From: Thermococcus piezophilus
GTDB lineage: Archaea; Methanobacteriota_B; Thermococci; Thermococcales; Thermococcaceae
Reading direction: 5' to 3'
NCBI RefSeq assembly: GCF_001647085.1
Contig: NZ_CP015520.1
Coordinates: forward strand, 1,116,001 to 1,180,000
DNA: 64,000 bases
Shown: in pieces, positions 36,361 through 40,378 of the stretch
Layout: each line of letters opens with the position of its first letter
How positions within the stretch are numbered: the first letter of the stretch is position 1
The notes under the pieces: model-generated
Told to the model about the DNA's origin: nothing
Databases searched by the model: none
What the model saw: the letters and a program-made list of their open reading frames with translations, nothing else
Translations under genes and position numbers: made by a program

Positions 36361-37503
36361 ATGGTAAGCTCTCACTTCAGGAACATTCTGCTCAAGCTCG
36401 GCATCCCTGAGGAGCGATTATCAGTCCTCGAGGGTAAAGGAGGCCTCGTCGAAGACGAGTTTGAGGGTATCAGATACGTCCGCTTCCGCGATTCTGCCAA
36501 GGGCTTCAGGCGTGGAACCCTCGTCTTCGAGAACGGCGAGGTGGTTCTGGGCTTTCCCCACATAAAACGCGTCGTCCAGCTTGAGAACGGGATAAGGCGC
36601 GTCTTCAAGAACAGGCCTTTCTATGTCGAGGAAAAGGTCGATGGATACAACGTCAGGGTCGTTAAAGTGGGAGATAAGGTTCTCGCCCTCACAAGAGGAG
36701 GCTTCGTCTGTCCCTTCACGACGGAGAGGGTTGAGGACTTCATAAATTTCGACTTCTTCATGGACTACCCGAACCTCGTTCTAGCTGGAGAGATGGCCGG
36801 GTCTGAGAGCCCTTACCTCGTCGAGGGTCCGCCCTACGTGACGGAGGATATTCAGTTCTTCCTCTTTGACATTCAGGAGATGGGGAGTGGGAAGAGCCTT
36901 TCCGTAGAGGAAAGGCTGAAGCTCGCTGAAGAATACGGAATTCCTCACGTTGAAGTGTTCGGAGTTTATGATCGACGCCGCATCGACGACCTCTACGACC
37001 TCATTGAGAGGTTGCATCGCGAGAGAAGGGAAGGAATCGTCATGAAGAGCCCTGACATGAAGAGAATCGCGAAGTACGTAACGCCCTACGCCAACATCAA
37101 CGACGTCAGGATAGGCTCGCACATATTCTTTGACCTGCCGTACGGCTACTTCATGCAGAGAATAAAGCGGCTGGCTTTCTATCTAGCAGAAAAGCACATC
37201 AAGGGTGAGGAGTTTGACGAATATGCCAAGGCCCTAGGGAAGGCACTGCTACGGCCCTTCGTTGAGAGCATCCATGAGGTGGCCAACGGCGGCGAGATAG
37301 AGGAGACCTTTACTGTTCGCGTCAAGAGCATAACCACCGCACACAAGATGGTCACCCACTTCGAGAGACTCGGCATCAAGATACACATCGAGGACATCGA
37401 GGATTTAAAGAACGGCTACTGGCGGATAACCTTCAAGCGGGTTTATCCTGACGCCACGAAGGAGATAAGGGAGCTGTGGAACGGGCTGGCGTTTGTGGAC
37501 TAG
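36361..37503 (+). CDS. ATP-dependent RNA ligase (Pab1020/Rnl3 family)
   Basis: This 380-residue ligase joins RNA ends through a Lys-AMP intermediate; members of this family circularise RNA in Thermococcales. The nucleotidyltransferase motif I is VEEKVDGYNVRVV with the adenylated Lys at residue 92. Motif III/IIIa (EDIQFFLFDIQE), motif IV (EGIVMKSPDMKRIAKYV) and a C-terminal helical domain used for dimerisation follow. GGTGGGAAG precedes the ATG. It lies between L10e and the decayed ATPase, with no RNA-processing partner nearby. Confidence 0.92.
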   Translation: MVSSHFRNILLKLGIPEERLSVLEGKGGLVEDEFEGIRYVRFRDSAKGFRRGTLVFENGEVVLGFPHIKRVVQLENGIRRVFKNRPFYVEEKVDGYNVRVVKVGDKVLALTRGGFVCPFTTERVEDFINFDFFMDYPNLVLAGEMAGSESPYLVEGPPYVTEDIQFFLFDIQEMGSGKSLSVEERLKLAEEYGIPHVEVFGVYDRRRIDDLYDLIERLHRERREGIVMKSPDMKRIAKYVTPYANINDVRIGSHIFFDLPYGYFMQRIKRLAFYLAEKHIKGEEFDEYAKALGKALLRPFVESIHEVANGGEIEETFTVRVKSITTAHKMVTHFERLGIKIHIEDIEDLKNGYWRITFKRVYPDATKEIRELWNGLAFVD

Positions 37504-37570
37504 GCAAGGAAACGTACTCTGGAGTATTATACTCATGGGTAGGTTTATAGATAGGAAAACTTGAAAGATT

Positions 37571-37608
37571 AACTTGCACCCCTGATAGTTACTTGTGGGG
37601 TGCAAGTT
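37571..37608. repeat. 38-bp palindromic element, copy A
   Basis: Perfect 12-bp arms AACTTGCACCCC and GGGGTGCAAGTT flank a 14-bp spacer containing ATAGTTACTTG. It overlaps the stop codon of the decayed ATPase gene (TAA at 37607-37609 on the minus strand). A near-identical element in the same orientation lies at 38683-38720, at the other end of that gene. Confidence 0.85.
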
Positions 37609-38682
37609 AAAGCTCCTTGAAGATCCTCACGAGCACCGGGTCGGGTATGGTGTATTGGTTATTCCTCTTCTCCACGTAGCCGTACTTCACGAGGTTCTCG
37701 AGCAGGTTCGAGAAGTTAGCGTCGTTAACGTAGCCAAGCTTCAGGGTCAGGTAGTCCTTGATGTCGCTCCAGCGGGAGTAGCCGAGCGCTATGGCCTTCA
37801 GAATCACGCGGTAGCGCGGGCTGTATGTGAAGAGCTTCGAGAGCTCGCTGTTTACCACCGACTTCGCCTCTCTCAGAACCTCTTCGAGGGCCTTTTCGTG
37901 GTCGAGCTTCCTCGTGGCTCTTACGTAGCCGTAGAGCGATAACCAGCCCACAATACCGTCGAGCTCCTCAACTGTCGCCCCGACTTCTTCCCTCACGGGG
38001 GAGCCTGCCTCATCGAACCCCCTCAGGAGAAACTCCTCGCTTAGCTCCTTACTAAAGCGTTCAATGACTATGTCGTGGTGGTACCTGCCGAAGAGCGGCG
38101 CCTCTGGATTGTTGAACTTGAGGAGTCGAAGAGCAGGCCGACTTCAGAGCCTGTGAGGATAAATGTGAGGTTTTTGAGGTTGTCAACGGCGTACGCTATT
38201 ATCCCGTCGTACTTCGTGGCCCCGCCAAAGCGGAGGTACTGGGCCTCGTCGAATGCTATGACGACTCTTCTCTTCTCCTCTCCATACTCGTTGAGAGCCT
38301 CCAAAAGCTCCGTTATTGAGAAATCCTTGGAGGTTATCTCAACCTTCGCCCCCGAGAAGGCTATCCCCTTAGCCTGCTCAGGAAGGCCTTTGCCTCCTCA
38401 ATGAGCCTTTTCTTGCCGCTCAGGGACGAGAGCAGGGTCTTGCCGATGATGTAGCGGTTCACGGAGGGGTATTCTGCGTAGGTCTTCCTCACGTCCACCT
38501 TTACCGAGGGGTTCGAAAGCTCGCCTAAGGCCATGTTGGAGGGCGAGCTCTTGCCGGGCCTCCTGAGGCCGGAGGGGAGTATCAGCCTCTTGCCCCTTTC
38601 TATTGCCTCCGCAAGTTCCCTCAGCTCGTTCTCTCTATCGAACAGCTCCCCTTTTCGTCTTCGGGTAAGGCGAGAACAGCAT
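37607..38682 (-). pseudogene. Archaeal P-loop ATPase (PF01637-like), decayed
   Basis: The remnant covers about 358 codons, the usual length of these STAND-like ATPases, but needs at least three frame changes, near 38650, 38375 and 38125. Pieces in order are MLFSPYPKTKR, LILPSGLRRPGKSS (Walker A), IVIAFDEAQYLRFGG (Walker B), LTFILTGSEVGLLFD, LFGRYHHDIVIERF, and a C-terminal winged-helix region ending VLVRIFKEL. The ATG at 38680-38682 follows a palindrome and a TATA box. Matching 38-bp palindromes at both ends suggest a mobile or self-regulated unit. Its decay looks recent because length and motifs survive. Confidence 0.85.
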
Positions 38683-38720
38683 AACTTGCACTCCCAATAG
38701 TTACTTGCAGGAGTGCAAGT
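38683..38720. repeat. 38-bp palindromic element, copy B
   Basis: Arms of 11 bp (ACTTGCACTCC-type and GGAGTGCAAGT) surround a spacer containing ATAGTTACTTG, as in copy A at 37571. It lies immediately before the ATG of the ATPase relic and directly after its TATA sequence, so a protein bound here would block transcription start. Confidence 0.85.
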
Positions 38721-38727
38721 ATAAAAG
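38721..38727 (-). promoter_or_regulatory. TATA box of the decayed ATPase gene
   Basis: Read on the minus strand this is TTTTATA. It abuts the palindromic element and is about 40 bases before the ATG ending at 38680. Confidence 0.45.
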
Positions 38728-38789
38728 GGTTGCCTTAACAGATGCCTTAGAGTTGTGTTTTTCTACTAAGCTATACTTGACGTTGAGCA

Positions 38790-38872
38790 GGTGAAGTTTG
38801 GGGTGTGGGGCGTTAGCCCCCCTAACGACCTTTGCATGAGCAAAGGTTGACCAAAGTTAGTGATTCTTATCT
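38790..38872 (+). repeat. Dispersed hairpin repeat, partial copy 1
   Basis: The stretch contains AGTTTGGGGTGTGGGGCGTTAG, a hairpin ACCTTTGC-AUGA-GCAAAGGT type at 38829-38848, and CCAAAGTTAGTGATTC. The same three blocks, in the same order, occur on the minus strand at 58167-58305, with a longer middle. It has no open frame of its own. Confidence 0.6.
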
Positions 38873-39083: not shown

Positions 39084-39238
39084 AGGAATCACTAACTTTG
39101 ATGAAACTTTCGCTTGGCGAAAGTTACTGGGGGATGGGGGCGGCAACCCTCTCCAGAGTTTTAGAAAAACAGGTTGCGGGATGAAACCCCGCATCGGGAG
39201 TTTGAGAGTACATCAACCTTTGCTTGAGCAAAGTTGAT
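39084..39238 (+). repeat. Dispersed hairpin repeat, copy 2
   Basis: It starts with AGGAATCACTAACTTTG, the inverse of a block in copy 1. A hairpin ACTTTCGC-TTG-GCGAAAGT follows, then a G-rich core, then AGTTTGAGAGTAC at 39199-39211 and a terminal hairpin ATCAACCTTTGCT-TG-AGCAAAGTTGAT at 39212-39238. The core and the GTTTGAGAGTAC word recur inverted at 58167-58305. The element may be a noncoding mobile relic or an RNA gene; no protein reading is convincing. Confidence 0.6.
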
Positions 39239-39534
39239 AAAACGAATTAACTTCTTAACTTAGCTGGAATGAGTTTTGCATGTCTTTTTAAAATTATGAG
39301 CTTGGTTAGGGTTTAACCTGAAGAGCTGACAAGCTAAAGGGTTTCGCTTTTCTCTTAACGCCCTTTGGGCGTTTATTTGCAGTGAAACTACGTAAGACCG
39401 TGAATCTAAAGTAAACCTACCCAGGAATTACCGCTTTAATAAGGACATGCGAGCTTTGATCAAACTTTGCGAAGGCGAAGTTTGTTTTGCAAAAAAATTG
39501 TACACCCCCAAACCTAAAAAAGGGTGGAAGGGTT
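39239..39534. other. AT-rich region upstream of the ribosomal cluster
   Basis: I see no gene here. A further hairpin of the same style, CAAACTTTGC-GAAG-GCGAAGTTTG, lies at 39461-39484, followed by the promoter of the SPOUT gene. Confidence 0.5.
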
Positions 39535-39541
39535 CGAAAGC

Positions 39542-39551
39542 CTTTTAAATA
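39542..39551 (+). promoter_or_regulatory. TATA box of the SPOUT-L3 operon
   Basis: CTTTTAAATA lies 57 bases before the ATG at 39608. It is the only evident promoter before the long co-directional ribosomal gene run, so it probably drives at least the first genes. Confidence 0.5.
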
Positions 39552-39607
39552 GTCTCCATAGACTTCCCCTCAGCTTTAGAGTATCCAGAACAAAGGATGA
39601 CGAAAAA

Positions 39608-40378
39608 ATGGCCTGGCACATCTTCATTCCCGATTCGCTCCTCGAAGAAACCGACGACCCGAAAATCAGAACATACAAAGTTGGGCAGATAGCCAGGGCC
39701 GCGGCGATATTCGGCGTCGAGCATATCTGGATTTACAGGGCCGGTGGCAGGGACGGGCGCTTCATAAAGCTCGTCCTCGAGTACGCTGAGACCCCGCAGT
39801 ACCTCCGTAAGAGGCTCTTCCCCCTGATGTCCGAGCTGAAGCACGTGGGGGTCATACCCCCGCTGAGGACCCCGCACCACAAGCTCAAGTCTAGGCCAAG
39901 GGTCGGGGAGATACGCGAGGGCTTTGCCTTCAGGCGGGGGAAGAGAATTTACGCCGACATAGGTCTCGACGAGTTGGCTACCGTCGAAGGAGACGTTGAA
40001 GGTCGCGCGGCCTTCAGAATAGTCTCGACGAGGCCTCTCAGGGTGGTACCTACAAAGCCAGAGGAATACTGGGGCTACAGGGTGCACCTCACGAGGAAGT
40101 CACTGGCAAAAACACTTAAAAAGGCCAGGCTTGACTTGGCAGTTGCAACCTCCAGGAAGGGGCAAGACTTCCGAGACGTGAAGCTTCCCCCACTCGAGGG
40201 GGAGGTCGGATTCGTATTCGGCTCACCGAGGAAAGGCGTGATGGAGCTCCTCGGAGAGGAGGATTATCCCTTTGATCTAATCCTCAACACCATTCCAAAT
40301 CAACGGACTGCCACGGTCCGTACCGAGGAGGCTGTCTTGGCCACCCTCGCGGTGTTTAATCTCATAAGGAGGGATTGA
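39608..40378 (+). CDS. SPOUT RNA methyltransferase (C9orf114/DUF171 family)
   Basis: This 256-residue protein belongs to the SPOUT superfamily of knotted SAM-dependent RNA methyltransferases; relatives are proposed to methylate rRNA uridine. The N-terminal part ([33 protein letters not shown]) and the C-terminal knot ([17 protein letters not shown], then [26 protein letters not shown]) are typical, with an OB-like domain inserted between. The ATG at 39608 follows GGATGA; the in-frame region before it lies in the promoter. It is the first gene of the L3 operon, one base from L3, a linkage that supports a ribosomal role. Confidence 0.85.

Follow-up and report, generated by a model that had tools for sequence, protein, structure and literature searches.

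What two near-identical palindromes are doing at the ends of a gene that no longer works is the question raised by this locus. The window, the whole 64,000-nucleotide stretch of DNA analyzed here, lies in a 1.93-Mb Thermococcus-type genome and carries a decayed ATPase gene with a palindrome at each end. The original prediction regarded this arrangement as a gene cassette defined by its ends. The analysis favors another answer: the palindromes are probably cognate recognition sites, i.e., predicted autoregulatory operators, of the Orc1/Cdc6-like ATPase encoded beside them.

The palindromes and the decayed gene

The strict arms ACTTGCACYCC...GGRGTGCAAGT are matched twice in the window, at 37572-37607 and 38684-38720. 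Both copies are real, though their lengths are 36 and 37 bp, respectively, and not the 38 bp first given. The window contains no third exact match to the strict arms, and the number expected by chance is 0 (100 shuffles). Counting the outer bases, the palindromes extend to 42 bp on the left and 41 bp on the right, and the left copy together with its outer TTA/TAA forms a palindrome with perfect 14-bp arms (37569-37610). The ATPase gene reads along the minus strand, which places its start codon (38682-38680) directly against the right copy and puts its stop codon (37609-37607) inside the left one, in agreement with the placement of one palindrome on each codon. The homology of the gene to an intact orthologue is spread over three reading frames; it is therefore a pseudogene, and the description of a decayed ATPase gene with exact arm matches at both ends holds. 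Both sites are intact and the gene between them is dead. The features are collected in Table 1, including the two conserved neighbors, which we take to encode an RNA ligase-like protein and a SPOUT-type protein.

Table 1. Features of the ATPase locus (window positions)
Feature	Position	Strand	Description
5' element	38682..38722	-	Two dyads (ACTTG..CAAGT, ACTAT..CAAGT) that abut the ATPase start codon; the strict match is 38684-38720; a counterpart precedes the start codon of intact orthologues
TATA-like box CCCTTTTATA	38720..38729	-	Immediately upstream of the 5' element
Decayed ATPase gene, family A	37607..38682	-	PF01637 AAA+ and MCM_C-type winged helix; homology over three frames
Longest surviving reading frame	37607..37996	-	C-terminal, with the winged helix (PF21100, 40.9 bits)
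3' element (second copy)	37569..37610	-	Includes the stop codon of the ATPase; outer arms perfect over 14 bp
RNA ligase-like gene (presumed)	36361..37503	+	Conserved left neighbor by synteny, convergent with the ATPase
SPOUT-type gene (presumed)	39524..40378	+	Conserved right neighbor by synteny, before ribosomal protein L3

The two window copies share an internal variant, ATAGTTACTTG, that is found in this genome alone, where relatives have CAAGTTACTTG. In the sense of the ATPase gene, the variant changes ACTTG to ACTAT in the second dyad and is common to both copies despite the dead gene. It could reflect gene conversion or a change that predates the decay. Gene conversion between the two copies was set aside as a general rule: the similarity between 5' and 3' elements is only weakly higher within genomes than between them (permutation p about 0.06), and the variant shared by the two window copies is a single case.

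Further intergenic inverted repeats of the type AACTTTGC..GCAAAGTT are found in the window at 38828-38866, 39086-39110, and 39213-39233. These repeats are plentiful in the corresponding interval of relatives.

The element beside intact ATPase genes

A loosened form of the palindrome pattern was searched in 61 congeneric genomes. The palindrome is widespread in these genomes and is frequently paired approximately 1.11 kb apart, and most such loci represent one conserved place, between the RNA ligase-like gene and the SPOUT-L3 operon. Intact orthologues of the window gene (family A) in approximately 18 Thermococcaceae genomes have the element at the start codon, with ATPase start codons deduced from homology, and 10 of 18 intact genes have a second copy at the stop codon. 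Whether the palindrome accompanies intact orthologues can thus be answered: the start copy was always read there, and sometimes the stop copy as well.

Each family A copy is best viewed as two ACTTG-N8-CAAGT dyads, 19 bp apart. The half of the 5' copy that faces the start codon is almost invariant. The inner 8 bp are found in both orientations, chiefly among the 3' copies. TATA-like boxes equivalent to the one in the window (CCTTTTAA / CCTTATAA) are present in the orthologues and in paralogues.

The original prediction asked whether the palindrome always flanks ATPase genes of the PF01637 type, and the answer is that it is essentially private to them. Among the 74 strict elements of family A and two related families (B and C, described below) in the 61 genomes, 56 are at ATPase starts, 5 at ATPase stops, 2 are the window's own pair, and 11 are solitary. 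All but one of the 56 start-located elements lie within 0-5 bp of an ATPase start, and the remaining one is beside a decayed copy. Neither the exact nor the loosened pattern revealed a set of other genes under A, B, or C elements in the 61 genomes, as would be seen for a regulon. This accounting bears on the simplest alternative, that the palindromes are REP-like or intergenic repeats standing beside the gene by chance. The other hairpin repeats in the same interval lend it some color, but with 63 of 74 strict elements at ATPase starts or stops (window pair included), abutment of the start within 0-5 bp, no matches to a reversed control, and the same architecture in other phyla, this reading is almost certainly wrong and is already contradicted by the genus-wide accounting.

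At each of the solitary elements that were read, relatives carry the ATPase, whereas the genome with the solitary element lacks the gene or keeps only a remnant of it. All 11 retain good symmetry without the gene. Some solitary family C elements stand before a gene for a small membrane protein. Solitary or doubled family C elements were observed near this gene (MRVFVRDYLLPW..) at loci L080, L081, L083, and L085, and at several of these sites the ATPase TATA box is altered from TTATAA to TTGTAA.

Each paralogous ATPase has its own element

The generic pattern ACTT-N10-AAGT-N-ACTT-N8-9-AAGT was run on the 61 genomes and yielded three element families, A, B, and C; the reversed control pattern gave 0 matches in the same genomes. 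Family B and C elements adjoin the start codons of paralogous ATPases at different conserved loci. A profile built from the A, B, and C ATPases identified paralogues in 55 of 61 genomes, with up to about a dozen per chromosome. In forty further paralogue upstream regions, each orthologous group has a palindrome of its own, located between a TATA-like box and the start codon, for example GTATCGGTACCGATAC-TTA-GTATCGGGGGCGATAC or CCCCCCACCAGTAACTGGTGGGGGG. In total, eleven paralogous clusters were distinguished, each with a distinct element sequence, and no paralogous family that was read lacks the start copy. The element is thus found at the promoter and start, is conserved among orthologues, and varies in sequence with the paralogue. 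In its usual form, the element combines a G-rich core and gene-specific arms in two dyads spaced by 19 bp; some elements have three or four. The stop-codon copy is less regular. Outside of family A, it accompanies 12-13 of 13 genes in family B, 1 of 14 in family C, 5 of 5 in cluster D3, and 0 of 34 in the remaining clusters.

The 19-bp period can be measured. With one representative for each of the 11 clusters, the self-identity of the upstream regions peaks at lag 19 alone (0.51, z=11.1), and 66 of 84 ATPase genes score above the maximum of 56 control genes taken from the window. The genes that fall short come mainly from three small clusters and D3: the signal is weak in clusters 7, 8, and 10, and cluster D3 (L182) has one long palindrome without the 19-bp periodicity. 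Additional upstream copies of the element occur at L161 and L245. Upstream of the start at L161, the 19-bp repeat GTATCGGGGGCGATACTTA is present in tandem at least three to four times, compared to two in relatives.

The same architecture extends beyond the Thermococci. A lag-19 peak is also seen in 38 non-Thermococci relatives (0.458, z=16.9), which come from Pyrodictiaceae, Desulfurococcales, Sulfolobales, Vulcanisaeta, Thermotogaceae, Caldisericum, and others. After removal of similar upstream regions, 43 divergent ones were left for a test of dyads. A perfect dyad adjoins the start codon in 33 of them, compared to 9.2 +/- 2.3 in shuffles. The arms of these 33 dyads are of 32 different sequences, so that symmetry is kept while the arms vary, and GGGG is present in approximately half of the spacers.

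Compensating changes in the arms around a G-rich core, a few nucleotides before a start codon, are also what RNA-level control would produce. In that case, the mRNA would begin with a hairpin formed by the start-proximal dyad, the Shine-Dalgarno-like G-rich core would lie in its loop, and the protein or temperature would control translation. Judged by its distance from the TATA box, however, the first dyad is expected no further downstream than the transcription start, and still it carries the same arms. Neither the extra upstream copies at L161 and L245 nor the stop-codon copies suit a leader hairpin, and control at the RNA level is quite improbable.

The encoded protein

The intact proteins belong to the PF01637 family (2QEN/SSO1545 type). 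Against Pfam ATPase_2 (PF01637; cut-off 33.2 bits), the intact family A orthologue scores 67.9 bits, and families B and C score 48.2 and 82.3, respectively. The window fragment scores 19.5 bits, below the cut-off, as expected for a pseudogene. Families A, B, and C share a C-terminal winged helix of the MCM_C type (PF21100), which the window fragment has retained. AAA+ and winged-helix domains were the only ones detected by the Pfam scan of the A, B, and C proteins, with no nuclease (DUF234), transposase, or recombinase domain.

Over the full length, the sequence matches 2QEN (272 bits) and 2FNA (174 bits), and strong matches in a PDB profile search were limited to these two structures. The AlphaFold model of the ATPase has a pLDDT of 93. 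A fold search with this model returned 2QEN and 2FNA first (TM about 0.9) and, in third place, 2QBY, which is Cdc6/Orc1 on origin DNA (TM about 0.5); later matches included ORC subunits, CED-4, and RuvB. By sequence, the protein is not an Orc1/Cdc6 family member, as ATPase_2 is matched in the Pfam scan and Orc/Cdc6 profiles are not, but the modeled fold appears Orc1/Cdc6-like in its combination of AAA+ and winged-helix domains. As modeled, such a protein would fit a dyad-reading role. DNA binding and bending have been reported for a STAND/NLR relative of this fold (PMC4599002).

The fold also suggests an origin-like site, in which an Orc1/Cdc6-like initiator would act on 19-bp repeats that are the iterons of a relic or minimal replicon. 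Two to four repeats with a dyad and a string of G beside the protein's own gene are in keeping with this idea. Up to about a dozen paralogues on one chromosome are not, replicon-like neighbors were not seen, and there was no plasmid match, which leaves an origin-like role very unlikely. A named anti-phage defense system was also considered; PADLOC profiles gave only weak matches to candidate single-gene models (PDC-S27, PDC-S01), with best E values of 2.5e-13 for family C and 6e-8 for family A.

Loss, exchange, and relocation of the gene

Empty sites with a single copy had been proposed as a check on the cassette, and they exist. Genomes G012 and G014 have the same outer flanks, but G012 has a single element between them and lacks the ATPase, a precise loss documented in this one genome pair, and solitary elements elsewhere provide other single-copy sites. 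The gene has also been exchanged. In 11 genomes, family A ATPase distances do not track the SPOUT and L3 distances (Mantel r=0.03). Between L048 and L054, the ATPase is 91.7% identical and the housekeeping block 82%; between L048 and L056, the trend is reversed, with 86% for the ATPase and 94.8% for the housekeeping block. The homology blocks among L048, L054, and L056 run from approximately -84 to the 3' element, and their flanks are unrelated. Because the ATPase and housekeeping similarities disagree and the blocks have unrelated flanks, the ATPase gene and its elements have been exchanged between lineages as a block. One of the AACTTTGC..GCAAAGTT repeats lies near the -84 boundary of this block.

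One clear relocation was found. In G034, G036, and G070, a family A copy is located in the rps3Ae-THUMP interval, which is uninterrupted in the sister genome G079. The relocated copy begins approximately 50 bp outside of the 5' element and extends to the stop codon. A comparison to G079 shows that the 3' element is missing and that the target is not obviously duplicated, so in this one event the ends of the moved unit are not the palindromes.

These observations support the original prediction in part. An exchangeable unit, intact genes that are bracketed, and precise loss all stand; the palindromes as ends of the moved unit are not supported, since the relocated copy has other boundaries and the stop copy is found only in some families. 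Because of those boundaries, transposon ends were rejected as the main reading. A mobile gene cassette would have the palindromes as its ends for recombination or transposition, with the ATPase gene carried as a unit through the action of its own product or in trans. It would account for the bracketed genes, the single-copy empty sites, the G012 loss, the homology blocks that stop at the 3' element against non-homologous flanks, and an ATPase similarity out of line with that of neighboring housekeeping genes. However, most paralogous families are without a 3' element, families A and B never occupy more than one locus per genome, the proteins have no transposase or nuclease domain, and the 5' boundary of the exchanged block is outside of the element. 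Moreover, the exact 5' element is absent from viral contigs and no relative of the family A ATPase was found in plasmids, on which grounds a viral or plasmid origin was also discarded. Together with the relocation, these points render a mobile cassette unlikely.

The RNA ligase-SPOUT interval is a hypervariable spot. Elsewhere it holds a second ATPase of approximately 460 amino acids (L046, L039, L042, L048, L095, L102, and L053), which is probably of the DUF234-containing type. These ATPases are preceded by AT-rich palindromes of their own, such as GATCACGATTATTATAATCATGATC, without 19-bp periodicity (L046:540-600, L102:1633-1693, and L053 upstream of 6298 on the minus strand). The interval also contains a gene with a variable N-terminus and a conserved C-terminus (..GLYAFAIEIIKRGEFERVREIEGL), some copies of which converge on the 3' palindrome. 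In G061:C1, the RNA ligase and ATPase genes (850 kb) are about 88 kb from the SPOUT gene (938 kb), which indicates a rearrangement breakpoint inside the interval.

A probable self-recognition site

The reading of the palindromes as cognate recognition sites of the adjacent ATPase draws on their position, their conservation, the one-to-one pairing of element and paralogue, the 19-bp architecture across phyla, and the symmetric arms. A regulatory operator comes first because the start copy sits between the TATA-like box and the start codon. The AAA+ ATPase, with its C-terminal winged helix and a build like that of archaeal Orc1/Cdc6, most likely recognizes the element of the gene that encodes it. 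By occupying the transcription start, in the stretch from the TATA box to the start codon, it would repress that gene. With gene-specific arms around a G-rich core, each paralogue appears to own an address. The stop-codon copy may add another point of binding or act as a boundary on the side of the convergent neighbor. It also supplies the direct repeats through which the whole gene is lost precisely, a loss seen once.

Autoregulation does not account for everything. Clean solitary elements without a gene are not explained by simple autoregulation and leave a self-address reading in play. The stop copy has no obvious role under autoregulation, and many paralogues lack this copy. A broader proposal, rather unlikely at present, is that a self-address code operates throughout this Orc1/Cdc6-like AAA+ family, which is found in archaea and thermophilic bacteria: the arms of 19-bp-spaced dyads would match their own protein only. 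Gene and site would be inherited, duplicated, exchanged, and lost as a module, and the stop dyads and solitary sites would be locus marks for self-propagation or allelic replacement, beyond repression.

The ATPase family is strongly expanded in hyperthermophilic archaea, and structures have been solved. A site beside nearly every member names the DNA that each protein should bind and predicts orthogonal protein-site pairs. The paralogues thereby offer natural sets for following the co-change of a winged-helix AAA+ protein and its site. A recognition site would also unite bracketed genes, precise losses, and solitary palindromes as a single phenomenon.

Comparison with known systems

The closest known proteins are PABY2304 of P. 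abyssi (PDB 2QEN) and SSO1545 of S. solfataricus (PDB 2FNA), which belong to the same family by both sequence and fold. They differ in that a palindrome at the protein's own gene is not described for either in the literature searched, a partial set that does not include the SSO1545 structure paper. The same partial coverage establishes no function for these two proteins or for the ATPase family. A P. abyssi project reportedly described some 28 Walker-type ATPases of this kind as one Pyrococcus family. As for the palindromes themselves, no description was found in the literature searched, with most subscription papers beyond reach.

Gene cassettes and REP/RAYT-type units resemble this locus in having a palindrome-bracketed gene that can be lost precisely. 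Here, by contrast, there is no integrase, transposase, or attachment chemistry, and the brackets are incomplete in most paralogues. Plasmid iteron-controlled Rep genes share the fixed-period tandem repeats beside a gene for a winged-helix DNA-binding protein, but the present elements are chromosomal, mostly comprise two repeats that are each a dyad, and have no replicon features.

Origin boxes (ORB), composed of a dyad and a G-rich stretch, occur next to archaeal orc1/cdc6 genes. Archaeal Orc1/Cdc6 and its boxes are therefore similar to the present system in the AAA+ and winged-helix fold and in having dyad repeats with a G-rich stretch beside the gene. The differences are the many paralogues, each with its own repeat, the location of the elements inside the promoter, and no sign of an origin. 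Autoregulatory winged-helix operators are alike in placing inverted repeats over their own promoter or start. What sets the present elements apart from them is the large AAA+ ATPase, the mostly 19-bp spacing across phyla, and the second copy at the stop codon in some families.
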